From the NCBI GenBank assembly GCA_013138735.1, contig WTCE01000061.1, positions 1 through 44,587 on the forward strand: a stretch of 44,587 bases of DNA, read 5' to 3'. Made by a program: the position numbers and the translations under genes. The notes beneath the pieces are model-generated. The model made no database searches. It was not told the origin of the DNA and worked only from the letters and a program-made list of their open reading frames with translations. This document shows positions 21,258 to 44,301 of the stretch, piece by piece; the first letter of the stretch is position 1; each line of letters opens with the position of its first letter. The stretch comes from Crocinitomix sp. (GTDB lineage: Bacteria > Bacteroidota > Bacteroidia > Flavobacteriales_D > Crocinitomicaceae).

Positions 21258-22251
21258 TTTGAATCATAAAATTGTAGATAAATTTGGAAGAAATCACGAT
21301 TATTTACGGATTTCGCTTACAGAGCGGTGTAATTTAAGGTGTTTTTATTGCATGCCTGAAGAAGGGATTGCTTTGCGCGATAAGGCCGAGTTTATGTCAA
21401 GCGAAGAAGTGCTAGAAATTGCGCAGACATTCGTAGATATGGGCGTAAAAAAAATCCGCCTAACAGGTGGTGAACCGCTCATTAAAAAAGACGCAAAAAA
21501 TTTATTACTGAATTTAGGAAAATTACCCGTTGAACTGGCCATAACAACTAACGGTGTTTTGGTAGATCAATTTATTGACACATTTAAAGCTGCAGGAATT
21601 CGCGCAGTAAACGTTAGCCTGGATTCATTGGATGAAGAAAGCTTTAATAAAATATCGCGGCGAAACTACTTTAAGCGTATTCGATCAAATATCGATTTAT
21701 TAATTGAGCACGGATTTCACGTAAAAGTGAATGTAGTTGTCATACGCGACATGAATGAACATGAAATACCCGATTTTATTCGTTGGTCCAAGGAGCAACC
21801 TATACATATTCGGTTTATCGAGTTCATGCCATTTGATGGAAACAAGTGGAATTGGGATAAAAAAGTATCCTACCGCGAAATGCTCTCAATAGCAGAAGCT
21901 GAATTTGGAGAGACTGCCATTAATAAAATTAAGAGCAAAAAGAACGACACAGCACGTGTATATCAACTTAATAAAGGCTTAGGAACTTTCGGGTTCATAA
22001 GCTCTGTTACAAACCCTTTTTGCGACACCTGTAATCGAATTCGTTTAACAGCTGATGGCAAAATAAAGAATTGCCTTTTTTCTCAAGATGAAACAGATCT
22101 TTTAAAAGCTTTAAGAAATGGAAATGAGATCAAAAGTTTAATTAGAAGTACTATTTTTGACAAAAAAAAGGAACGTGGAGGAATGATTGATTTTAATGAA
22201 GATTTTGTAAAATCTGATAAAAATCGGTCCATGGTCTCTATTGGTGGATAA
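21250..22251 (+). CDS. moaA: GTP 3',8-cyclase MoaA
   Basis: 333 aa radical-SAM enzyme making 3',8-cyclo-GTP, the first step of molybdenum cofactor synthesis. The N-terminal radical-SAM cluster is Cys27, Cys31, Cys34 (ERCNLRCFYCMP). The C-terminal second [4Fe-4S] cluster is Cys258, Cys261, Cys275. The GTP/SAM motif LTGGEPLIKK and the conserved C-terminal Gly-Gly tail (residues 332-333) are both present. It overlaps the hemerythrin gene at the start, indicating translational coupling, and is followed by a Crp/Fnr gene. It supplies cofactor for NarG. Confidence 0.96.
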   Translation: MIDLNHKIVDKFGRNHDYLRISLTERCNLRCFYCMPEEGIALRDKAEFMSSEEVLEIAQTFVDMGVKKIRLTGGEPLIKKDAKNLLLNLGKLPVELAITTNGVLVDQFIDTFKAAGIRAVNVSLDSLDEESFNKISRRNYFKRIRSNIDLLIEHGFHVKVNVVVIRDMNEHEIPDFIRWSKEQPIHIRFIEFMPFDGNKWNWDKKVSYREMLSIAEAEFGETAINKIKSKKNDTARVYQLNKGLGTFGFISSVTNPFCDTCNRIRLTADGKIKNCLFSQDETDLLKALRNGNEIKSLIRSTIFDKKKERGGMIDFNEDFVKSDKNRSMVSIGG

Positions 22252-22267
22252 TTTTAACCCCGTATTA

Positions 22268-22939
22268 ATGAAATTTTTAATTGATAAGTATTGTTCAAAA
22301 GAGTGGAAAGCATTTATAGATTTCCACAAAAAAACAAAACACTTTGAGAAAGGTGAATTTGTATTTGAAGCAGGTCAAGACACTAAAGGCTTATACATCA
22401 TTGAGTCAGGAAAAGTAAAAATTACTTCAAAGCAGTTTGATAAAAGTTTGCGATTAATTCGTTTGGCAAATGATGGCGATATTTTAGGCCACAGGGGATT
22501 TGGTGGAAATTGGAAATACCCGATTTCGGCATCTACTTTAGAAAAAACAGAAGTTACTTTCATTTCAGTTAAAGTTTTTGATGTAATAGCGAAAACAAAT
22601 GCCTTATTTAGCTATCATTTAATGATGTTTTTTGCAGAAGAATTGCGAAAGTCAGAGGCTAAGATAAAACATTATCCAGTTAAAAATTTGGTAGCAAGAG
22701 CCCTACTCGATAACTGTCGTGCATTTGGATTTGAGAATAAAAAATCTACAAAATTGGCTTATACATTATCTCGAAAAGACCTAGCCAGCAAAGCCGGAAC
22801 AACTTATGAAACGGTCGTTCGATCCTTAGCTGAGTTCAAAAAAGCTGGCATTATTGATACAGAAGGTAAGGCTATTCATGTACTTGATTTGGATCGACTA
22901 AGAGCAATTGCCCGCCCAGAGGAACTTATTCACCACTAG
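22268..22939 (+). CDS. Crp/Fnr-family regulator, third in the window
   Basis: 223 aa from the ATG at 22268; an in-frame TTG at 22241 would overlap moaA and is less likely. cNMP-like barrel (about 20-105 from this start), dimer helix, then a winged-helix HTH with recognition helix GTTYETVVRSLAEF, which keeps the Glu and Arg for TGA half-sites. No N-terminal cysteine cluster, so not an FNR-type oxygen sensor. It is the last gene of the hemerythrin-moaA operon, under an FNR-type site, giving a regulatory cascade. It may sense NO (DNR/NnrR-like), but no sensing residues are identifiable. Confidence 0.83.
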   Translation: MKFLIDKYCSKEWKAFIDFHKKTKHFEKGEFVFEAGQDTKGLYIIESGKVKITSKQFDKSLRLIRLANDGDILGHRGFGGNWKYPISASTLEKTEVTFISVKVFDVIAKTNALFSYHLMMFFAEELRKSEAKIKHYPVKNLVARALLDNCRAFGFENKKSTKLAYTLSRKDLASKAGTTYETVVRSLAEFKKAGIIDTEGKAIHVLDLDRLRAIARPEELIHH

Positions 22940-22958: not shown

Positions 22959-24296
22959 TTAATTCGACTGTTCCTTTGATAATTTCATGTGATTGTAGAG
23001 CCTTTTTAATAATGGTGCGGATATCATTGTGATTCCAATAAAAAGTGCACATCCTGAAAGGAAAAACAGCCAAAAAATAGGTGTAGATTCGGAATGCAAG
23101 GTTGAAAATGATAAGTTTTCAGGATTGGACATCCATACAGCTTTGTAAACACCACCTATGACTAAGCTAAGCCAGAAAACGGCTAAGGAAATATTGAAGA
23201 GTATAAAACCATAGTACCCCGTTTTACTTGTCAAAGGCCCGCTAATTATTTTCACAATATAACTTACTGAAGCCAGTAATATGCAGGTGTTAATACCAAT
23301 CGTTGTGCCCATTGAATGGGCAACGGTAATATGCGTACCATGCATATAATAATTCAGCGCTGGTATAGACATTAACAAGGCCAATATGAGATTTACAAAA
23401 ACCCAGAATTCACTCGCCATTAAAAAACGATATGCCATTGAATTTTCTTTCTTTTGAGCCTTACTCAATGATTTGGCCCAAGCATAAATAATGTGGATCA
23501 AAATGATCCATTCTGTCATACTAATAACGTAGGCTACGTATCTAATCCAATCTGCATTTGGCAAAATATAAGTATGGTGTGCCCAGCCAAACATGAGGTT
23601 GGTCAACCCTAAAAAATAGAAAAAGAACACTGTTTTGCCTCTAGCCACATTTTCATCCTTTTTAATTTTTGACATGAGATAAATCGCCGTTCCATAAATC
23701 AACATGTTCCAACTGCCAAAAAATGAGCCATAGGACTTCCATTGTATGCCCATGTCTTTTATAAAGTCACTTCTTATGTCTGAAAAAATCCAGAAGTGGG
23801 CTTCTGATAAATGGTAAACCATAAATACAATACCCGTTCCCCACATCCAAAGATAAACGGGACGATTTTTAATTTTTCCAAAGAGTGATTTGAAATAATT
23901 AAATCCAAATAGGATCCATCCGACTAAAATAGGTATTGTTAAAAGTGGAAAATACTCCAAATATTCGCGCCCACCCATTCGTCCAGACAACAATGAAATG
24001 TAAATGGCTACTCCTGTTAACGCAAAGAGTATAAAATGAAAAAAGCCCAACTTGGGAGCGTAAATGGTGATGTTTTTAATTTGAGACAAGTAATAATAAA
24101 CCCCTCCAGTTGCCCCAAGAACAATCCAAGAAACCACAGTAGTAGTATGTAATGGGCGGAGTTGGTTGAATGGAATAATTTCTTTTAAAAAAGTGGCGTC
24201 TAAATAAGTAAAGGAAATTAGCAATCCAATGAAAGAACCAAGTACCAAAGCCACGAGGCCCAAAGCAATAAAAAGTAAAGGGAAATGCCGCGTCAT
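22959..24296 (-). CDS. norB: NorB-like haem-copper oxidase family subunit with a non-canonical FeB site
   Basis: 445 aa, 12 predicted membrane spans, catalytic subunit partner of NorC (2-bp gap). Family assignment rests on RPLHTTTVVSW (His50, low-spin haem ligand), WAHHTYILPNADW (His240-His241), MTEW (Glu262), YYMHGTHITVAHSMG (His327, haem b3 ligand) and the NorC neighbour. Compared with the P. aeruginosa NorB residues known from the structure (His207, Glu211, Glu215, His258, His259, Glu280, His347, His349), a constant offset of 18 aligns helices VI-VIII without gaps. It puts Tyr189, Phe193 and Asn197 where His207, Glu211 and Glu215 should be. At an offset of 20, Met329 stands where His349 should be. 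The usual reaction is 2 NO to N2O; with this active site that is not certain. No norQ or norD is nearby. Confidence 0.8.
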   Translation of the reverse strand: MTRHFPLLFIALGLVALVLGSFIGLLISFTYLDATFLKEIIPFNQLRPLHTTTVVSWIVLGATGGVYYYLSQIKNITIYAPKLGFFHFILFALTGVAIYISLLSGRMGGREYLEYFPLLTIPILVGWILFGFNYFKSLFGKIKNRPVYLWMWGTGIVFMVYHLSEAHFWIFSDIRSDFIKDMGIQWKSYGSFFGSWNMLIYGTAIYLMSKIKKDENVARGKTVFFFYFLGLTNLMFGWAHHTYILPNADWIRYVAYVISMTEWIILIHIIYAWAKSLSKAQKKENSMAYRFLMASEFWVFVNLILALLMSIPALNYYMHGTHITVAHSMGTTIGINTCILLASVSYIVKIISGPLTSKTGYYGFILFNISLAVFWLSLVIGGVYKAVWMSNPENLSFSTLHSESTPIFWLFFLSGCALFIGITMISAPLLKRLYNHMKLSKEQSN

Positions 24297-24298
24297 AA

Positions 24299-24721
24299 TT
24301 ATTTGTATTTAATAGATACCCAGCCGTCGGCTCCAAATTCAGCATTGAGATTTGGGTAATACCCAGTTCTGTCAACATGCTCTAAAAATTGGACTAGCGC
24401 TTCTTTTTCAGTTTCTGAAAAATCGAATTTAGGCATTGAACTCACCCCACTGTTAAAAAAAGCTTTGGCATATCCCGAACCTTTATAAGGGTGAGAAATA
24501 ATGTTTGTTAAATCAGGACCGAGATAGCCCCCAAGTCCATAAAGTTGATGACAAGCCGTGCAATTGTTTTCTTGCCAAATTTTTTCACCTTCTAAGGCGG
24601 TTTCTGACATCAACGGAGCCGTGCTACCTGAGGTGGGCTGTAAATACAATACTAAATTATAGGTTGCAAATACACAAACTAAAATTGTAAGTACTAAAAT
24701 GTTTCCACCCCTTTTTTCCAC
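24299..24721 (-). CDS. norC: NorC-like membrane-anchored cytochrome c
   Basis: 140 aa. N-terminal membrane anchor (about 8-28), then a periplasmic mono-haem cytochrome c domain with CTACH at 54-58 and a likely Met96 axial ligand (SSMPKF). NorC-type context is GLGGYLGPDLTNI after the haem motif, and QFLEHVDRTGYYPN near the end matches the NorC family tail. It passes electrons to NorB from periplasmic or membrane donors. First gene of the norCB pair, behind an FNR-type promoter. Confidence 0.88.
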   Translation of the reverse strand: MEKRGGNILVLTILVCVFATYNLVLYLQPTSGSTAPLMSETALEGEKIWQENNCTACHQLYGLGGYLGPDLTNIISHPYKGSGYAKAFFNSGVSSMPKFDFSETEKEALVQFLEHVDRTGYYPNLNAEFGADGWVSIKYK

Positions 24722-26958: not shown

Positions 26959-27894
26959 ATGAAGTTTTTAGAAGAAAAAATTATTGCCTTAAAAAAGGAA
27001 AAAAATGCAGTAATTTTAGCACATTTCTATCAAGATTCTGCCATCCAGGATCTTGCGGATTTTGTTGGAGATAGTTTAAGTCTTTCACAAAAGGCTGCCC
27101 AGGTTGATGCTGATATAATAGTTTTTGCTGGTGTTCATTTTATGGGAGAAACCGCTAAGATTTTAAATCCAAATAAAAAAGTAATAATCCCAGATTTGGA
27201 CGCAGGTTGCTCTTTAGCTTCTTCTTGTCCTCCCGATAAATTTGGTCATTTTGTAAAGCAGCATTCCAACCATACGGTTATCACTTATATTAATTGCTCT
27301 GCAGAAGTTAAGGCGCTTAGCGATCTTGTTTGTACTTCGTCTAATGCATTAAAAATTGTCAATTCCGTTCCTAAAGATCAGCCCATCATTTTTGCTCCAG
27401 ATAAGAATTTGGGTAAATATATCATGAGTCAAACTGGTCGAGACATGTTATTGTGGGACGGTGCTTGTATAGTGCATGAGGCATTTTCTATAGAAAAACT
27501 ATTGGAATTAACTCGAAAATATCCAGATTTCAAAATTATTGCGCATCCCGAATCGGAGGAACATATTTTGAAAACAGCAAGTTATATTGGTTCAACGTCT
27601 GGTATGATCGCTTATGTTAAAAGGTATCCGACAGAGAAATACATTGTTGCTACAGAGGTAGGGATTTTACATAAAATGCAAGCCGCAGCACCTTATACAG
27701 AATTGATACCTGCGCCCGCCAAAGATGATAACTCCTGCGCATGTAGCGAATGTGGCTACATGAAACTAAACACATTAGAAAAACTATATCAATGTTTGCT
27801 TAATGAGGCCCCTGTTATAGAAGTAGCAGAGACAATTAGAATTAAGGCGCTAAAACCTATTGAACGAATGCTTGAATTATCTAAAGAAGAATGA
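26959..27894 (+). CDS. nadA: Quinolinate synthase NadA
   Basis: 311 aa, [4Fe-4S] enzyme condensing iminoaspartate with dihydroxyacetone phosphate to quinolinate in NAD synthesis. Family marks: [20 protein letters not shown] (21-40), [20 protein letters not shown] (81-91), [19 protein letters not shown] (112-130), WDGAC (Cys170), HPES, STSGM, and a C-terminal [11 protein letters not shown]. The cluster cysteines are among Cys84, Cys113/125, Cys170 and Cys260-265. It overlaps nadB by 4 bp. Confidence 0.95.
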
Positions 27895-29438
27895 AAACAG
27901 ATTTTTTAGTGATAGGATCTGGAATTGCGGGTTTGACCTATGGTATAAAAATTAGCGAAAAATTTCCAGATAAAAAGGTATTGATAGTGACCAAAAACCA
28001 TGAATCGAACACTCAGTTTGCTCAGGGCGGTGTTGCCATTGTTCAAAATGACACAGACTCATTTAATAAACATTATAATGACACTATTCTCGCAGGGGAT
28101 GGGTTATGTGATGAAAAAATAGTGAAAATGGTAATTTCGGAAGGTCCAAAATGTTTGTCCGAGATGGTGGATTGGGGTGTTCAATTTGACCTTAAAGAAG
28201 GGGGGCGATTTGATCTAAGAAAGGAAGGAGGACATTCAGAGAATAGAGTTGTACATTATAAAGATATTACTGGTGCGGAGATTTCAAGAGCAATGTTGCT
28301 CAGATTAGAGAAACTTGAAAATATCACTTTTTTGTCCAATCATTTTGTTTTAGATCTGATTTCGGATCATCATCTAAAAAGTGAAAAATCGAAAAATGAA
28401 ATAACATGTTATGGATGCTACGCCTTGAATGAGGAAAACAACCAAACAGTAACTATTCAAGCGAAAATTACATTAATGGCAACAGGAGGAATAGGCCAGG
28501 TTTATGGACATACCACTAACCCAAATGTAGCAACCGGGGATGGTATTGCCATGGCCTATAGGATTGGAGCTAAAATAAAAGAGATTGAGTTTGTTCAATT
28601 CCATCCAACGGTTTTGTACGCGCCTTCATCCCAAACAACTTTTTTGATTTCAGAGGCAGTAAGGGGTTTTGGAGCAAAACTAAAAAATGAGTCAGGAGAA
28701 GAATTTATTTATAGATATGATTCACGTGGAGCGCTAGCTTCTAGAGATATTGTAGCTAGAGCAATTGACGCAGAATTGAAAAACACGGGAAAAAAGTGTG
28801 TGTATTTAGATTGTACAGAACTTGATCCTATTGGTTTTTCAGCTCATTTCCCAACGATAACAGAAACCTGTCGACAGAATGGAATCAATGTTCATAAGGA
28901 TTTGATTCCGGTTATTCCTGCTGCGCATTATGGTTGCGGAGGCATACAAGTAAATAAAGATGCGGAAAGTTCAATTCAAAATTTATTTGCCTGTGGTGAA
29001 TGCGCTCAAACTGGTCTGCATGGTGCCAACCGTCTAGCGTCAAACTCATTGCTTGAGGCATTTGTATTTGCTGATAAAGCAGTCGAAAAATCGGCACAAC
29101 TTATCGGAGGTATTGAATTGCCGGTACATATCCCTGATTGGAATGATAAGGGAACGGTATTGACTAAAGAAAAGGTGTTGATTTCTCACAATAGAGTTGA
29201 ATTACAGCAAATAATGCAAAATTACGTGGGTATTGTTCGCTCCAACACACGTTTAGAACGGGCTTTAAAAAGAATTGAATTACTTTATGAAGAAACAGAA
29301 ACACTCTATAAATTGGCGAAAATTTCGAATGAGTTATGTGAGCTTCGAAATATGATTTCCGCTGCCTATTTAATCATTACACATTCACAACGAAGAAAAG
29401 AAAACAGAGGTGGATTTTATAATATCGATCTCATATAA
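27891..29438 (+). CDS. nadB: L-aspartate oxidase NadB
   Basis: 515 aa FAD flavoprotein oxidising L-aspartate to iminoaspartate for NadA. FAD motif [12 protein letters not shown] (about 8-19), [33 protein letters not shown] with the active-site His, [15 protein letters not shown] with the active-site Arg, and [13 protein letters not shown] near the C-terminal helical domain. It can pass electrons to O2 or, without oxygen, to fumarate, which fits a promoter controlled by an FNR-type site. The nadC gene is not here. Confidence 0.95.
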
Positions 29439-36160: not shown

Positions 36161-37576
36161 TTAATGGTTTCTCGGTTTTTTTCCGAAAAAATGACTTTTA
36201 GATTGGCGAATTTTCGATTTGTTCCAATTCCAAATCACCATTTGGTATCTTCTCCAGAGATAATCTACTGGCGCAACCAAGAAGTGCATAAATCGTGTGA
36301 ATGGAATAAGTCCAATGAGAACAAAGGCCGCTACAATATGAATTTGAACCCAAACAGGAGCTGCAGATACAGCATCAATATCTGGACTGAAAGAGAATAT
36401 TGATCTGAGATAAGGAGTCAGAACACTAGCAAACCAACTTGAACCCCATCTTACGAAATAGGCTACTCCTAGTCCGGATACAATTTGTGTCAGTAAAATG
36501 GCGTAAACAACCATGTCCATTTTATTGGTAACTACCAGTAAGGTCTTAGAAGTCAGTCTTCGTTTAATTAACAAAATCAATCCTAGAAGCGCCAATAAAG
36601 CAAAGGCAAATGAACTAATTTCAAGAATTAGAAGGCGAACGGGTTGCCCATTCCAAGCAATAAGCGCTCGTGGGAACATGAAAGCAATCAAGTGTCCAAA
36701 GAATATAACCATTAAACCCCAGTGGAAAGGTTGACTTCCCCAAAATAATTTTTTCCCTTCTAAAAACTGTGTGGAAAGAGAAGATACTTTGTACCCTTTT
36801 TTAGTATAACGATATATACTTCCGACAATGAATAAGCCAAAGGCAACGTATGGAAGGGTCGCAAATAACAGCCCATTGATATGTGATATATTATTATTTA
36901 AGCCTTCAATCAATAATATAATTACTAGACTGAAAACAGCTAAAATGATGAAGAATATGAGCGGAAAATTTTTGATCTGATGCGGTCCAAAGAAAATCCC
37001 ATCTTCACGCGATAGTTTTTTAACCTTGCGTAGATAATTGTAGAAATAAGCAATTACAAACATCAGGATTATTAAGCCCCATAAAAGGAAAGCGCTATAA
37101 TCCGGGCCGGTTGCAACAGTTGCGTCAGAACCTGATGCTACTGACTCATCTCCACCTGCCGCAACAACAGTAGGATCGGCCATATACTCAACCAAACCTT
37201 GGATTTCATCATCCGAAAGATCGGTGAAAGCAGGCATAGCTGACTTATTAAATTCCTCATAAATAGCTATAGCATCTGGGTCGCCTGATTTTATCATGGC
37301 GTCTGAATCTTTAATCCAAGTTGCCAGCCATTCTTCCGTTCTTTTTTCAGTAATACCACCTAGACCTGGACCAATTATTACGTCGTCCGATACTGAGTGA
37401 CAAACACTACATCTATTCTTAAAAAGCTCACCACCTTCCTGCGCAAGCAAGTTAGATGAAAGTAGAAAGGTTGATAAAAAGATAGCCAAGGTACCAAGCA
37501 TTGCTCGGTATTTAGTGGCACTATTCTTTGACCATAACATAATTTTCTTTTTTTTAATGATTGAATGACCTTCCAT
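36161..37576 (-). CDS. narI: NarI-type nitrate reductase membrane subunit fused to an N-terminal cytochrome c
   Basis: 471 aa. A signal peptide or anchor (about 26-46) leads into a periplasmic mono-haem cytochrome c domain (about 47-135; CSVCH at 56-60, likely Met114 ligand in SAMPAF) and a Gly/Ser/Ala linker. Then follow a membrane span (about 161-181), another (about 204-223) and the NarI di-haem b core with the expected four ligands, His285/His295 (FHWGLMVIFFGHL) and His413/His431. E. coli NarI is 225 aa and takes electrons from quinol only. The fused cytochrome and extra spans suggest an added electron entry or branch at the periplasmic side. Last gene of the nar operon. Confidence 0.9.
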   Translation of the reverse strand: MEGHSIIKKKKIMLWSKNSATKYRAMLGTLAIFLSTFLLSSNLLAQEGGELFKNRCSVCHSVSDDVIIGPGLGGITEKRTEEWLATWIKDSDAMIKSGDPDAIAIYEEFNKSAMPAFTDLSDDEIQGLVEYMADPTVVAAGGDESVASGSDATVATGPDYSAFLLWGLIILMFVIAYFYNYLRKVKKLSREDGIFFGPHQIKNFPLIFFIILAVFSLVIILLIEGLNNNISHINGLLFATLPYVAFGLFIVGSIYRYTKKGYKVSSLSTQFLEGKKLFWGSQPFHWGLMVIFFGHLIAFMFPRALIAWNGQPVRLLILEISSFAFALLALLGLILLIKRRLTSKTLLVVTNKMDMVVYAILLTQIVSGLGVAYFVRWGSSWFASVLTPYLRSIFSFSPDIDAVSAAPVWVQIHIVAAFVLIGLIPFTRFMHFLVAPVDYLWRRYQMVIWNWNKSKIRQSKSHFFGKKPRNH

Positions 37577-37577
37577 G

Positions 37578-38270
37578 TTATTTAGTTTTTACAAGTTCTG
37601 TTGCAGTTGAACAAGCCCCTTCACAATTAGGCAAAAATGAGCTTAAGGGGTCTGGTTGAATTTTTTCCTCTTCAAATGAATTGATTTTGAAATCAGATTG
37701 AAAAACTTCTAACAAAGCCATCAATGCATATTGGTAGGCATTTTTATCTTTCAAATTTTCTTGAATGAGTACTTTTTGCTTTTTCTTTCTAACTTTCGTT
37801 TTCAATGCTATTCGTGATGTTTCAAATTCTTTTACCATCATTTCAATTGCTGGTATATACATCCGCACTGCTAGCTCTTCTAAGAAAACTTGATCTTCCA
37901 ATAAAGGAAGCAGTGTTAATGCATTCGGCAAATTATCAGACAATTCAACACCGCAGTCGTTATTTACTTTACGCTGCTCATTTTTCATTTGCACCAAAAA
38001 ATCACCTCTTTTATAATCTTCAGCATACAACACATACCCAAGATCTAAATAGCATATTGCCTGAATATGGAAGGTTTTACCAAACAACTCCTCTATTTCG
38101 TAGATGTTAGCTCTTTCGTGAATGATTTCTTGAAACCTCTTTAAATGTACATACGCTTTAGGGTATTGGTATTGGATAAACTTTACGCAAGCGTCTACCT
38201 GCTCTACATATCCTTTTTGCGGATACCGAAATAAATTAGCTAAGAGATTATATTGAATTTTATCTTTCAT
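37578..38270 (-). CDS. narJ: Nitrate reductase assembly chaperone NarJ
   Basis: 230 aa all-helical protein of the NarJ/TorD chaperone family, needed to insert the Mo cofactor into NarG before membrane attachment. Seen: LLANLFRYPQKGY near the start, LPLLEDQVFLEELAVRMYIPAIEMM in the helical core. It lies between narH and narI with almost no gap (1 bp to narI), the standard order. Sequence is divergent, so position supports the call as much as residues do. Confidence 0.85.
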   Translation of the reverse strand: MKDKIQYNLLANLFRYPQKGYVEQVDACVKFIQYQYPKAYVHLKRFQEIIHERANIYEIEELFGKTFHIQAICYLDLGYVLYAEDYKRGDFLVQMKNEQRKVNNDCGVELSDNLPNALTLLPLLEDQVFLEELAVRMYIPAIEMMVKEFETSRIALKTKVRKKKQKVLIQENLKDKNAYQYALMALLEVFQSDFKINSFEEEKIQPDPLSSFLPNCEGACSTATELVKTK

Positions 38271-38298
38271 TTGTCCACTTTTTTAATGATTGTGAGAT

Positions 38299-39792
38299 TT
38301 ATAAACCTCTAGCAGGTCTTTCTTTAAATCCAAACCCTGTTTCTCCTTTAGCGTCTGCCGTTGCTTCTAGCATCTCAATTGACTCTTCTCTATGCGCTGG
38401 TGGAATTACAAATCGTTCTTCAAAAGTTGCTAATGAAGTCAATCTAAAAATGGCGTTCGCAGTGTCTTTATCAACTTTTGCGTTTTTCATTAAATCTATT
38501 ACTTCATTTTCATCTAAATCACCAACAGTTTCGTGTCTTCTGAAATATTTAACGCTCAACAGTTTTTCATAAACCTCTGTGATCTTTTCTGTGTCATGAT
38601 TTGAAAATAAAGATGCCAAATACTTCACAGGAACACGTTGTTGATCTACTTTCGGAAACAAATCCGTTGATTTCGTTTCATAATGTCCGTTTTCATCCAT
38701 TTGCGCCATAGCTGGCAACATTGGCGGAACATAAAATAAATTCGGTAGTGTTCTATACTCGGAATGTAAAGGCAATGCAATTCCCCATTCTTTCACAAAT
38801 TTGTAGACTGGCGATTTTTGCGCAGACTCAATAGTTGAATCATGGATCCCTGCTTTTCTTGCAGCTGCAATAATTTGTGGATCGTTCGGATCGACATAAA
38901 TATTGAGTGAATTATGTAATAGATCTTTATCACTTGATGAAGCTACAGCCTCTATACGGTCTGCATCATAAAGCATAACACCTAAATATCTAATTCTTCC
39001 TACGCAAGAGTGCATACAAGCTGGTGCTTGTCCAGATTCTAAACGTGGATAGCATAGGATACATTTTTCAGATTTCCCAGTATGCCAATTGTAATATGAT
39101 TTTTTATAAGGACAAGCCGTTACACACATTCTCCAAGCTCTGCATCTTTCTTGATTGATCAAGACTACACCATCTTCGCCTCTTTTATAGATAGCGCCAG
39201 ATGGACAAGCTGCAACACAAGCAGCATTCAAGCAGTGATTGCAAATTCTAGGCAAATACTGCAAGGTCATTTGTTCCAACTGAAACATTGCTTCTTGTTC
39301 AGATGGAGAAAGCGCTGCAAAATTCACATCCTTACGTGCATAGTCAGGAGAACCTCCTAAATCATCATCCCAATTGGGTCCTGATTTAATGTCAATCGGT
39401 TCACCAGTCACTAAAGAAATTGCTCTACCAATTGGTTGATCATCTCCTTCAGGTGCAGTGAATAAATCACTATACTTATACGCCCATGGATGATAATAAT
39501 CTTCCAAAGTTGGCATGTGTGGATTATGGAATATATTTTTTAAACCTTTGAGTTTTCCAGCTCCTTTTAAGGCAATTTTATCTCCTTTTTTCTCCCATCC
39601 ACCTTTATAGATGTCCTGATCTTCCCATTTTGTTGGATAACCTGTACCTGGCTTTGTTTCAACATTGTTCCACCACATATATTCTGCTCCACGTCTGTCT
39701 GTCCAAACATTTTTACAAGCAACCGAACAGGTGTGACAACCGATACATTTATCGAGATGAAAAACCATTGAAATTTGCGCTCTAATATCCAT
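38299..39792 (-). CDS. narH: Nitrate reductase beta subunit NarH
   Basis: 497 aa Fe-S electron-transfer subunit linking NarI to NarG. I start at the ATG at 39792 (MDIRAQISMVFHLDKCIGC), as in other NarH proteins; a longer frame would run into narG. Four ferredoxin-type Cys groups are present: CIGCHTCSVAC, CNHCLNAACVAACPSGAI, CRAWRMCVTACPYKK (Trp marks the [3Fe-4S] site, as in E. coli) and CILCYPRLESG...ACMHSCVGR. Length is close to E. coli NarH (512). Third gene of the operon, 29 bp after narG. Confidence 0.96.
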   Translation of the reverse strand: MDIRAQISMVFHLDKCIGCHTCSVACKNVWTDRRGAEYMWWNNVETKPGTGYPTKWEDQDIYKGGWEKKGDKIALKGAGKLKGLKNIFHNPHMPTLEDYYHPWAYKYSDLFTAPEGDDQPIGRAISLVTGEPIDIKSGPNWDDDLGGSPDYARKDVNFAALSPSEQEAMFQLEQMTLQYLPRICNHCLNAACVAACPSGAIYKRGEDGVVLINQERCRAWRMCVTACPYKKSYYNWHTGKSEKCILCYPRLESGQAPACMHSCVGRIRYLGVMLYDADRIEAVASSSDKDLLHNSLNIYVDPNDPQIIAAARKAGIHDSTIESAQKSPVYKFVKEWGIALPLHSEYRTLPNLFYVPPMLPAMAQMDENGHYETKSTDLFPKVDQQRVPVKYLASLFSNHDTEKITEVYEKLLSVKYFRRHETVGDLDENEVIDLMKNAKVDKDTANAIFRLTSLATFEERFVIPPAHREESIEMLEATADAKGETGFGFKERPARGL

Positions 39793-39821
39793 AATTGATG
39801 TATTTAATTCTTGTCTGCTAA

Positions 39822-42800
39822 TTAATATTCTACTTTGTGCATCTTTCTCACTAGCACGTGTGTATCCCTGTTTACACCAACCGGTCCCCAATAATTAAAG
39901 TGGTAGGTAAATTGTCCGTAACCACCGCACATTAAGTTTGGCTTAAGGTGAACCCGAGTAAAGGAGTTATTCATCCCTCCACGACGCGGCTCGCCATTTT
40001 TACCTCTTCTTATTTGGGATTTTGGAATATTATAAGTTCGCTCAACAGCGTGATAAACAATACAAACTCCATTGGGAATTCGAGCACTTACACAGGCTCT
40101 TGCAACGTATACACCGTGGTCATTATAAACTTCCACGTGGTCGTTGTCATTGATTCCTAGTTCGGCTGCATCATGCTCACTTAACCAACAAGGTTCGTTA
40201 CCACGGGATAGCGTTAACATTCGTAACGTATCTCCATAAGTAGAGTGAATATGCCATTTTCCGTGAGGAGTTAAACAATTCAGCATTTTGGCCTGACCAT
40301 CATTCACTGTTTGACGCAAATCTCCGTATGCTTCAGGTGTTGGAGATGGTTTATAGGTTGTCATATGTTCACCAAAAGCCAAGTAGGCATCATGGTCTAA
40401 ATAAAAGTGTTGACGTCCTGTTAAGGTTCTCCAAGGCACAAACATATCTACGTTGTAGGTATATGCTGCATAGGTTCTTCCATCATGCATTAATCCTGAC
40501 CAAAGTGGTGAAGAATTATAGCGTTTAGGTTGCGCCTGTAAATCACGATATTCGATTGAAACATCTTTATAAGGTTTACCTAACTCAGCAATTTCAGGGA
40601 TACCAATTTTCACGGCCGCGTTTTTATAAGCGCGGTCTGCTAATTTACCATTGGTTAAACTTGACAATTTCAAGATGGCATCAATCGCTTCAACATCTCC
40701 ATGTAAGGATGGGTATTCTGTTCCATCTTTCCATTTTTGAACATGTTGACGGTGATCAAGCATTTCTTCATACACATCATCACACATATAGTGATTTCCG
40801 TGTGCGCCCAATCCGTTTTTTGCAACTCCTTTTCCTAAGGATATAAATTTGTCGTAAATTTTAGTGTAATCCCGTTCTTTGAAAACAATATTGTGCATTG
40901 TTTTACCTGGAATTGGTTCGCATTCTCCTTTACTCCAATCTTGCAAATGTGGTTGACTCATTTCATCTTTAGAATCATGAACCAATGGCACGTTTATTAC
41001 ATCCTTCATTACATCTGGAAGATATTGCGGTGCCATATCCTGCACTTTTTTCGCAATATCTCTAAAGATATGCCAATCTGTTTTTGATTCCCAAACTGGC
41101 GGAATCGCAGCAGATAGTGGATGGATAAACGAGTGCATATCAGTTGAATTGATATCCGCTTTTTCATACCACGAAGCTGTAGGCAATACAATGTCAGAAT
41201 AGAGAGCAGAAGTATCCATTCGGAAGTTGATGTCAATGACTAAATCCATTTTCCCTTGTGGGGCTTTTTCTAAGAATTCAATATCATGCGTAACATCCTC
41301 GGCTACCTCATCTGCAATTTTGTTATTGTGTGTACCTAAGTAGTGATCTAAGAAATACTCATGTCCTTTTGCGGACGTTCCAATTGCATTTCCTTTCCAG
41401 ATAAACCAAACACGTGGAAAGTTAATTTCTCGATCCGGTTCAGTAATAGCATGTTTCAATTCACCTGATTTAATTTGAGCAACCATGTGGTCTCTAATCT
41501 CATCATCTGTATTAAAACCTGCAGCTTGAGCATCTTTTATAATGTCAAAATTGTTTTTGCTGTATTGAGGGTAATAAGGCATCCAGCCATTTTTAACCGC
41601 TTTAACAGCCCAATCAGCTGAGTGCATATTGGCTAATTCATTGTCTGGAGATGAATTGTATTTTTTCTGATTTCCATCATATCTCCACTGGCATGAATTA
41701 ATATAATGCCATATTGGTCCTTGCTGTAATCTTGGGGTTGTCTCCCAATCTTTTGAACTCATTATAGTTGACCATGAATCCATTGGCGCCAATTTCTCTT
41801 GCCCCACATAGTGATTCATTCCTCCACCATTTTTACCATTACAACCCGTTAGCATTTGCGCCATAATAGCTGAGCGGTAAATCAAGTTTTCATGAAACCA
41901 GTGATTAATTCCGGCTCCAACTATTACCATACAAGCACCCTCAGTTTTCTCGGCAGTGGTTGCCCACTCTCTTGCCAATTGAATAACTTCTTTTCTACCG
42001 ATACCGGTAAAAATCTCTTGCCATGCAGGAGTATAAGCGGAACTTGTATCATTATAATCTGTTGGATAATCTCCTTCAAGACCTCGTCCAACACCATATT
42101 GAGCCATAGTAATATCATAGATAGTTGCTACTGCAATCTGATCCCCATTAACATCTGTAATGTATCTAACAGGAACTCCACGATTCGCTTTATTATCTAA
42201 TCCGTATTCTGTAAATTCTACTTGAAGTACACCTTCATTCTTGTCTAAGAAAGATAATTCCGGATCATATTCTGCTCCAGTTTCTCCATCATTAAAATTG
42301 AGGTTCCACTTTCCTTTTTCATCTTGCCATCTAAATCCAGTAGTCCCCATAGGAACTATAAGTCCACCAGTTTTTGTGTCATAATTCAAAAATTTCCAGT
42401 CGCCATTTTCAGCGTCTTTATGTTTTGAAATTTCGTTGGCACGAATCATTCTACCTGGCAGATTTACACCATTTTTCTCTTCCACTTTAACAAGGAAAGG
42501 ACAATCTGTAAAACGCTTTATATAGTCCATGAAATATGGAACTTGGCGTTTAACATGATATTCTTGTAGAATTACATGTGTGACAGACATCCAAAATGCA
42601 CCATCAGATCCTGCGTGAACAGGAATCCATTGATCGGCATGTTTAGCAACCATACTAAAATCCGGAGACATTACCACGGTTTTTGTACCATTATGTCTTG
42701 CTTCAGAAAAGAAGTGAATATCTGGCGTACGCGTCATCCCAAGGTTGGCACCCATTGAAACAATGAATTTTGACTTAAACCAATCGGCAGATTCGCAAAC

Positions 42801-43463
42801 ATCTGTTTGCTCTCCCCACACTTCAGGAAATGCATTTGGTAAATCACAATACCAATCATAAAAGCTTAAGTTAACAGCCCCCATTAATTGCAAGTAACGT
42901 GATCCAGCAGCATAACTAAGCATACTTTTAGCCGGAATTGGAGCAAATCCTATAATTCGATCTGATCCATATTTTTGAACCGTATAAATATTTGAGGCAG
43001 CAATTAATTCCACCATCTCATCCCAATGAACTCGTCTAAAACCACCTTTACCACGAGCACGTTGATAACGTTTTCTTTTTTCAGGATTAGCTTGCAAATT
43101 TGCCCAAGCTTTAACTGAATCTCCATCAACTTTTTCTTTTTCCTCGCGATACAAATCGATTAAAGCTCCTCTAATAATTGGATACTTTACCCGAATCGGG
43201 CTGTATAAATACCAAGAATATGAAATCCCACGTTGACAACCTCTTGGCTCATAAGGAGGAACCTCTTTATTGAACTGCGGGTAATCTAATTGTTGCATTT
43301 CCCATACAACAATCCCATCTTTTACATGAATTGCCCATGAACATCCACCAGTACAGTTTACGCCATGCGTACTTCGAACTACCTTGTCATACTGCCATCT
43401 GTTTCTGTAAAATTCTTCCCATTTTCGGGTTTCTGGCGATATTATATCTTCGATCCAACTCAT
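39822..43463 (-). CDS. narG: Respiratory nitrate reductase alpha subunit NarG
   Basis: 1213 aa catalytic molybdenum bis-MGD subunit reducing nitrate to nitrite. The FS0 cluster ligands His33, Cys37, Cys41 and Cys76 ([11 protein letters not shown]...PRGCQRG) match E. coli His49/Cys53/Cys57/Cys92 with a constant offset of 16. The Mo-ligand Asp is in FYDWYCDLP (Asp207). Other typical stretches are [13 protein letters not shown] and the ERTYN...RRGGMNNS near the end. No twin-arginine signal: the N-terminus ([20 protein letters not shown]) is even shorter than in E. coli, so the enzyme should face the cytoplasm and nitrate must be imported by NarK. Length is normal (about 1240). Confidence 0.97.
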
Positions 43464-43493: not shown

Positions 43494-44165
43494 TTAAAAT
43501 TTTGCGTCCCAAGCGCTGTGTTGCCGTGCAAAAATATCGGCCTTTACCATTTTCTTTTTTCGTTTGCTCCAAAGCAATTGGACAAGTCCCAAGAGACATA
43601 TTAGCCCGATTCCACCACCAACAACAAGGTAAGTACCTCCGCTCGTTTCTACCTGACTATCTTTTGTTTCGTCTGCATACTTAAGAAAAGCTGTTAAATC
43701 AACACGCTCTTGCTCAGTAAGTGGGTTATTATTATATGTGGATGCCATTGCTGGAAATGGAGGAGCGCCTAACCAACTAACCAATCCTTCGCCCAATCGG
43801 CTATATACATCTGTTAAGTCTTTTGCGAATAATCCTCCTGGAATTACATCCTCATGCGTCACGTTGTGACAAGCAATGCAGGATGGCCCTCCATTCAAAA
43901 ATAAACTTCCTCCTTGAAAAAAAGCCTTACCACGATCGATATCCCCTACCAATGTTATAACGGGTTCAACTTCAGTTTCAGTTTCAGTTTCAGCGGCGTC
44001 TTCATCAAGTTCTTCTACCACTATAGCTGAATCTGCAATAACGACATCTTCAATTATGCCATCTTCAATTGTATCACCTTGCGCTTGCAAAGCAAGAGGC
44101 GAAAGAAAAAGGATTTGGCTCATTAAGAGAATCCTAACCCGTTTGTATATTCTTGTTCGATTCAT
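43494..44165 (-). CDS. narC: NarC-like membrane-anchored cytochrome c
   Basis: 223 aa from the ATG at 44165; a longer frame to 44252 would run through the promoter. Signal peptide (RILLMSQILFLSPLALQAQ), an acidic Glu/Asp/Thr linker (33-68), a mono-haem cytochrome c domain with CIACH at 96-100 and Met in PFPAMAS, and a C-terminal membrane span (about 181-203) with a basic cytoplasmic tail. A cytochrome c gene before narGHJI is known from Thermus (narC), where it takes part in electron flow and enzyme maturation. First gene of the operon. Confidence 0.85.
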   Translation of the reverse strand: MNRTRIYKRVRILLMSQILFLSPLALQAQGDTIEDGIIEDVVIADSAIVVEELDEDAAETETETEVEPVITLVGDIDRGKAFFQGGSLFLNGGPSCIACHNVTHEDVIPGGLFAKDLTDVYSRLGEGLVSWLGAPPFPAMASTYNNNPLTEQERVDLTAFLKYADETKDSQVETSGGTYLVVGGGIGLICLLGLVQLLWSKRKKKMVKADIFARQHSAWDAKF

Positions 44166-44208
44166 TGTGTTTAGATTTAATTCTAAATGGTTTATCAATT
44201 TTACATTA

Positions 44209-44251
44209 CAAATGTGCGGCTTAAACAGGTCTGATAAAATGATCTGAATCA
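44209..44251 (-). promoter_or_regulatory. FNR-type site and -7 box of the narCGHJI operon
   Basis: TGAT-CTGA-ATCA at 44240-44251, centre 44245.5; minus-strand CACATTTG (44209-44216) ends 36.5 bp away, leaving a leader of about 37 nt. Confidence 0.75.
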
Positions 44252-44301
44252 TGTTTTTGATATAGTCGTCTGCTTAAAACTGAACTAAGCAACGCCATGT
44301 A

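Follow-up and report, generated by a model that had tools for sequence, protein, structure and literature searches.

A NorB-related protein family with a NorC-like partner and altered metal-site and heme b residues

Our reading, to which we give a probability of about 0.6, is that NorC*B* is a two-subunit, membrane-bound heme-copper enzyme fed by a heme-c protein, that it most likely makes N2O from NO, and that it represents a separate family whose catalytic centre has been rebuilt. NO reduction is inferred from genome content, the partner subunit and the retained NOR-type glutamate. The family is probably undescribed; its FeB site is probably rebuilt, and its low-spin heme b is probably held by one His and one Met. 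Several lines of evidence led to this reading. The nearest structures were cNOR and cbb3, the partner matched NorC, and Glu262 was present as in all 13 c/qNOR references and absent from both cbb3 references. Four genomes with both NirK and NosZ contained no other NOR-like heme-copper protein, and nosZ was found in seven of the eight phylum-sample genomes with NorB*. In addition, NorD was confined to the cNOR genomes apart from one 24% match, and 7 of 80 loci have a canonical norB next to the pair.

The gene pair and its active-site residues

The window, i.e. the whole 44,587-nucleotide stretch of Crocinitomix sp. contig WTCE01000061.1 that was analysed, carries norB* as a frame of 445 amino acids on the minus strand (24296..22959), a strand missing from the original prediction; the plus strand of the same interval was stop-rich in the frame read. 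NorB* scored 103.1 bits against PF00115 (cut-off 34.8). Its best solved relatives in a phmmer search of PDB chains were the NorB chains 4xyd_A (2e-15) and 3o0r_B (3.1e-11), followed by cbb3 CcoN (4e-8), and it passed none of the NCBIfam models, the top one being ccoN with 51.7 of 583 bits. NorC* matched the P. aeruginosa NorC chain 3o0r_C (5.1e-11) over query residues 8-116, and a NorC-type heme-c subunit is thus encoded with NorB*, as in cNOR. A scan of genome contigs yielded 94 coding relatives, of which 80 were kept as loci. A pattern search found a NorC-like gene upstream in 79 of these 80, and the exception (L073) carries a NorC-cluster member. At one locus (L065:4992-6324) an assembly error or a frameshift divides the NorB* gene into frames of 338 and 138 aa. 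The coordinates are collected in Table 1.

Table 1. Features of the window and residues of NorB*, with positions in the window; residue counts refer to the family alignment
Feature	Position	Strand	Evidence
Hemerythrin protein and moaA	20556..22251	+	PF01814; TIGR02666 over cut-off
Crp/Fnr-type regulator, convergent neighbour	22241..22939	+	PF13545 and PF00027
norB*, catalytic subunit of the new family, 445 aa	22959..24296	-	ORF, PF00115, phmmer, tree
norC*, membrane-anchored cytochrome c (CTACH), 140 aa, NorC-like partner, three bases upstream of norB*	24721..24299	-	PF13442 and PF00034; 3o0r_C 5.1e-11
Met329, place of the helix-X heme b His	23310..23312	-	Met 79/79; His in 15/15 references
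Glu262, place of Glu280	23511..23513	-	79/79; Glu in 13/13 c/qNOR, Leu in 2/2 cbb3 references
His241 and His240 codons, kept FeB pair	23574..23579	-	79/79
Asn197, place of Glu215	23706..23708	-	N 79/79
Phe193, place of FeB Glu211	23718..23720	-	V43 T33 F2 I1 of 79; never Glu
Tyr189, place of FeB His207	23730..23732	-	Y63 T13 V2 G1 of 79; never His
Lys187, new invariant near the lost His	23736..23738	-	79/79; 0/15 references
Glu165, end of helix V, putative metal ligand	23802..23804	-	79/79; 0/15 references
narGHJI-like nitrate reductase genes	36161..43463	-	ORFs, named by eye

The residue alignment contained 79 sequences, namely the window protein and 78 of the 80 loci (L063 and L065 were dropped as fragments), and was compared with 15 reference rows (nine cNOR, four qNOR and two cbb3). 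In the phmmer alignment to 3o0r_B, the P. aeruginosa NorB, YGSFFGSWN was paired with HLWVEGVWE, AHH (240-241) with GHH, and SMTE (262) with SALE; at the aligned places we take the P. aeruginosa NorB numbers to be His207, His258 and His259. The residue pairs originally proposed (Tyr189/His207, Phe193/Glu211, Asn197/Glu215, the His240-241 pair and Glu262/Glu280) all hold in this alignment, with Glu211, Glu215 and Glu280 numbered as in passages of PMC3431322. A metal site differing strongly from that of cNOR had also been predicted, and the loss proved to be family-wide: the FeB ligand set of three His and one Glu was not found, with 0/79 His at position 189 and 0/79 Glu at position 193. Because the substitutions extend through all 79 aligned sequences, chance or a sequencing oddity is excluded. 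The alignment showed no other conserved His or Glu in helix VI, whose presence was named in the original prediction as what would refute it. The divergent relatives L087-L090 had N, N, Y and A at position 189 and V at position 193.

These losses count against an NO reductase, since the residues matter in the known cNOR and qNOR enzymes. Glu211 and Glu280 are described as critical in cNOR in part of PMC3431322, and mutants at the Glu211 and Glu215 equivalents of qNOR lost more than 90% of activity according to passages of PMC6713497, where the Glu215-equivalent mutant of the P. denitrificans cNOR lost only about 60%. The place of Glu215 is Leu in one of the nine cNOR references (L009), which cautions against overweighting Asn197.

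Helix X has changed as well. Its motif is HxM throughout the NorB* family (79/79) and HxH in 15/15 references; of these two histidines the first binds heme b3 and the second the low-spin heme b. An arrangement of this kind, with one heme b3 ligand and one heme b ligand on the same helix, is described for qNOR (PMC6713497, in part). Kept in NorB* were the proximal heme b3 ligand His327, the helix-VII pair His240-241, the NOR-type Glu262 and the heme b ligand His50. Among the six signature histidines that passages of PMC3413370 give for the heme-copper superfamily, four remain (H50, H240, H241 and H327); the two lost in 79/79 are the one in helix VI and the second one of helix X. Both PF00115 and the structural matches given below place NorB* in this superfamily; with the six-histidine set incomplete, it is, judged by its sequence, a homologue but a non-standard member. 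The invariant residues of the family that are absent from all 15 references include Glu165, Lys187, Tyr201 and His322, and directly after Glu165, between helices V and VI, the family has a segment that is extra with respect to cNOR.

An AlphaFold2 model of NorB*, which was built with 30 family members and contains neither heme nor metal, had a mean pLDDT of 85.9 and a pTM of 0.90, with low confidence at residues 161-190, 231-250 and 311-330, the very places in question. Its top Foldseek matches were the cNOR chains 3o0r_B and 4xyd_A (query TM 0.82 and 0.86) and cbb3 structures including 3mk7 (0.80-0.86). A control model of canonical NorB was poor (pLDDT 54, pTM 0.44) and was left out of the comparisons. 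In the NorB* model helix V ended at residue 165 and helix VI started at residue 178. A hand estimate, which counted 1.5 Å per residue from the cytoplasmic helix ends at 147 (from the model) and about 208 (chosen by hand), placed Glu165 and Tyr189 about equally deep, at 27-29 Å, and this similar depth makes Glu165 a candidate ligand only.

Relationship to known reductases, dismutases and oxidases

The main tree contained 33 rows (13 of the new family, nine cNOR, six qNOR, two NOD and three cbb3), with the B-type eNOR, sNOR, gNOR, bNOR and nNOR families not among them. The new clade was supported at 100/100, cNOR at 99/96 and NOD at 100/100, and a branch of cNOR, qNOR and NOD that excluded the new clade had 100/99. 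NorB* therefore does not group with cNOR, which is nearer to qNOR and NOD, and the separate position outside cNOR, qNOR, NOD and cbb3 that had been predicted is borne out. A quick tree of 49 rows agreed on the new clade. In the NorC tree, the NorC-like partners likewise formed their own side (100/99). Plasmid records gave 240 matches, all below 60% identity, with the best 40 of the 240 at 21-25% and no close relative among them; these matches and one further search served as the source of reference sequences.

NorC*B* resembles cNOR (NorCB) in the two-subunit layout with a NorC-like heme-c protein, the fold, the HH pair, the Glu280 place and the heme b3 His. Unlike cNOR, NorB* lacks the helix-VI His and Glu, carries Asn for Glu215 and Met for the heme b His, has the extra V-VI segment and forms its own clade, and the NorC*B* genomes without cNOR have no close NorD. 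With qNOR it shares the HH pair and the Glu, and it would also share independence of NorQD, whereas qNOR has its cytochrome-c-like domain (PF22085 in L136) fused into a single long chain and NorC*B* consists of two genes (445 and 140 aa), has a heme-c partner and falls in a separate clade.

The oxygen reductases come close in structure, and a terminal oxidase of cbb3-like type was therefore weighed. NorB* shares with CcoN the fold and a QW at the start of helix VI, its sequence matched CcoN weakly, and in the main tree it fell on the same side of the midpoint root as cbb3. This placement joins long branches, however, of which both trees warned, and nearness to cbb3 is not claimed. Both cbb3 references keep HxH and HH and lack Glu262, and their partners are other than NorC-like, whereas NorB* has the NOR-type Glu262, a NorC-like partner that is not of the CcoO/CcoP type, and a clade of its own. 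The tyrosine six residues before the HH pair has a role in cbb3 oxidases, and NorB* has Leu234 at this place. Furthermore, G000, G411, G413, G427 and G438 already encode both a cbb3 and an A-type oxidase. With separate clades, Glu262 and other oxidases present, an oxygen reductase was judged very improbable.

The original prediction had also raised a different fate of NO, for instance dismutation to N2 and O2, to which joint work with an NO dismutase may be added. Like NOD, NorB* is related to NOR and has altered FeB ligands, and long qNOR-type proteins with NOD-like changes (SHN and STLQ) adjoin the pair at two loci, about 4 kb away in L137 (L137:1066-3405, plus strand) and directly beside it in L140 (L140:5866-8178, plus strand). 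In the published dismutases one FeB His has become Asn and one Glu has become Gln (PMC3413370, in part), and which FeB His changes was read from the L137 and L140 rows. In the NOD rows it is the HH pair and the Glu280 place that have changed, with the helix-VI His intact, and NorB* shows the reverse: HH and Glu262 were kept in 79/79 and the helix-VI His and Glu were lost instead. The published changes were thus found in L137/L140 and not in the NorB* family, and membership among the NO dismutases was rejected. NorB* also stands outside the qNOR and NOD branch, NOD was read in only two genomes, the heme-c subunit supplies electrons that dismutation does not need, and seven of the eight phylum-sample genomes with NorB* carry nosZ. 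A dismutase-like outcome is consequently unsupported, and we regard it as quite improbable.

Another possibility, which we consider rather unlikely, is that the family is genuine but has been classified before, by Murali et al. 2024 or in a later study. Later surveys do use the Murali et al. 2024 profiles of seven NOR classes, as passages of PMC12569097 and PMC10359470 indicate. Like NorB*, the eNOR, sNOR, gNOR, bNOR and nNOR families are NOR relatives with an altered active-site residue, given as N, Q, D or N, with none for nNOR, in Table A4 of PMC8756737. The classes beyond cNOR and qNOR are described as B-family related in passages of PMC11388526, whereas NorB* sits by cNOR, qNOR and cbb3. 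In addition, sNOR, gNOR and eNOR have a cupredoxin subunit II according to part of PMC8756737, in contrast to the c-type cytochrome partner of NorC*B*. A literature search covering few subscription papers, and not Murali et al. 2024, gave no description of the NorC*B* family. The undescribed NO-reductase clade of the original prediction thus stands as a separate clade, while its undescribed status is unproven by this search.

Genome content, neighbourhood and maturation

The genome survey comprised 51 genomes, namely G000 and the genomes of 50 of the 80 loci, many of them MAGs, so that absences may be gaps. cNOR was found in 21, a long c/qNOR-type protein as the only one in three, and neither in 27. 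Five long c/qNOR-type proteins occurred in the 51 genomes, and of the three that were read, those of L136 and L138 were qNOR and that of L137 was NOD. NirK was found in 19/51, a NirS-type domain in 8/51 and NosZ over the cut-off in 34/51. A nitrite reductase was present in 10 of the 27 genomes without c/qNOR, and NirK and NosZ together in four of the 27 (G411, G413, G427 and G438). Each of these four encodes exactly three PF00115 proteins (E 1e-5): an A-type oxidase (HPEVY), a cbb3 oxidase and NorB*. cbb3 oxidases can slowly reduce NO. Three of the four are the isolates Aequorivita aquimaris, A. soesokkakensis and A. viscosa, and the fourth is a MAG; in A. aquimaris (L027, G411), a single contig carries nirK, cbb3, NorC*B* and nosZ in a stretch of about 31 kb.

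This gap-filling argument was kept off the gammaproteobacterial NirS genomes because G444 (L139) has further heme-copper proteins and G437, G441 and G442 have six or seven each. The two further proteins of G444 are L139:11736-13469 (minus strand, 578 aa, GHSSQQ) and L139:629-2038 (plus strand, 470 aa, GGHIIQF). Gln is the residue listed for eNOR in part of PMC8756737, and GHSSQQ would match it provided that the relevant position lies four residues beyond the His. Two adjoining NirS-type frames with one in-frame TGA each were observed at G443:C86:7915-13649.

The family is rare. In an even sample of the phylum, NorB* was found in 8/395 genomes, in two of them as partial genes only, and NosZ in 128/395; among 398 genomes drawn around a gammaproteobacterial genome, only the centre genome was positive. 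nosZ accompanied NorB* in 7/8 genomes compared with 121/387 genomes without NorB* (Fisher p = 0.002, not corrected for kinship), and N2O as the product therefore fits better than N2 and O2. The exception among the eight is the genome of the window itself, which had no match to NirK, NirS, NosZ or NrfA, and NorC*B* closes no gap there. In that genome the NO would have to be of external origin or arise in side reactions as nitrate or nitrite is reduced, and the pair would serve in detoxification.

The window resembles a region for nitrate respiration, with the features of Table 1 and a NarK-family match under its cut-off. By eye, the NarI-like gene (36161..37576, minus strand) starts with a cytochrome c-like stretch (CSVCH), and a cytochrome c-like protein (CIACH; 43494..44252, minus strand) flanks narG. 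A scan of the window for FNR boxes gave 21 matches with at most one mismatch, where 11.5 were expected; the single exact match is at 40746, and one of 100 or more shuffles reached 21. None of the matches lay in the stretch upstream of norC*, and the scan is uninformative on the norC*B* operon. nadA/nadB were named by eye near the pair (26959..29438), with a possible link to NO stress; NadA is an iron-sulphur enzyme. Across the 80 loci, clusters named by eye near the pair were norD/norQ/norE-like at 23, nadA or nadB at 37 and Rrf2 or RIC types at 33. Another recurring protein, of membrane type and about 400 aa long, has an HTHSH motif and no Pfam match; it was seen at L144:14841-16055 (plus strand), with relatives in L024, L038, L043, L048, L051, L053 and L056.

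NorQ and NorD insert FeB into cNOR, and qNOR is independent of them (PMC9976466, in part). NorD, the one of the two chaperones that was searched, was found in 21/21 cNOR genomes and in 1/30 others, the latter a 24% match (Fisher p about 2e-13, not corrected for kinship), and it does not accompany NorC*B* as it does cNOR. Since NorD tracks cNOR and not NorC*B*, either the metal site is filled without NorQD or there is no such metal. In the latter case NorC*B* would be a heme-based complex for NO binding or electron transfer, i.e. a sensor, a buffer or a helper of canonical NOR. Such a complex would suit the loss of two FeB ligands, the distribution of NorD, the canonical norB (HLWVEG motif) adjoining the pair in some loci and the cNOR held together with the pair in 21/51 genomes. 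But a metal-free site has no need of an invariant HH pair and Glu262, and 27 genomes have NorB* and no c/qNOR, ten of them with a nitrite reductase. We therefore consider this unlikely, and the invariant HH pair favours a site filled without NorQD over an absent one. In the 21 genomes that also hold cNOR, the pair may do another job.

Proposed mechanism and meaning for the family

As an NO reductase, NorC*B* would receive electrons at the heme c of NorC*, from which they would pass via the low-spin heme b, held by His50 and Met329, to heme b3. The non-heme metal would be held by His240, His241 and a carboxylate, for which Glu165 is the leading candidate and Glu262 the second, so that a 2-His-1-carboxylate site would replace the 3-His-1-Glu site. 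Maturation would proceed without NorQ and NorD.

A stronger reading, which we put forward tentatively, is that NorC*B* represents a third lineage of heme-c-fed NO reductases, combining a 2-His-1-carboxylate site (His240, His241 and Glu165), a His/Met low-spin heme b and a proton path from the cytoplasm, and conserving energy unlike cNOR. Both the metal site and heme b would then be unlike those of any NOR or oxidase compared. The polar residues Asn197, Tyr201, Asn233 (77/79) and Asn336, which are new in this family, invariant or nearly so, and placed on the cytoplasmic side of the centre by a reading of helix directions, would form the proton path.

Known c-type NO reductases are taken to be built around an FeB site of three His and one Glu and a heme b with two His ligands, and a strictly conserved family with a NorC-like partner that lacks both would show what the formation of the N-N bond needs. 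Cultured hosts exist in the three Aequorivita species, which have nirK and nosZ and in which NorB* is the sole NOR-like heme-copper protein, and the function is thus directly testable. In accounts of greenhouse gases, the NorB* family would escape surveys that exclude proteins lacking the known ligands, and some nirK-nosZ Bacteroidota that seemingly lack a NOR could be complete denitrifiers.
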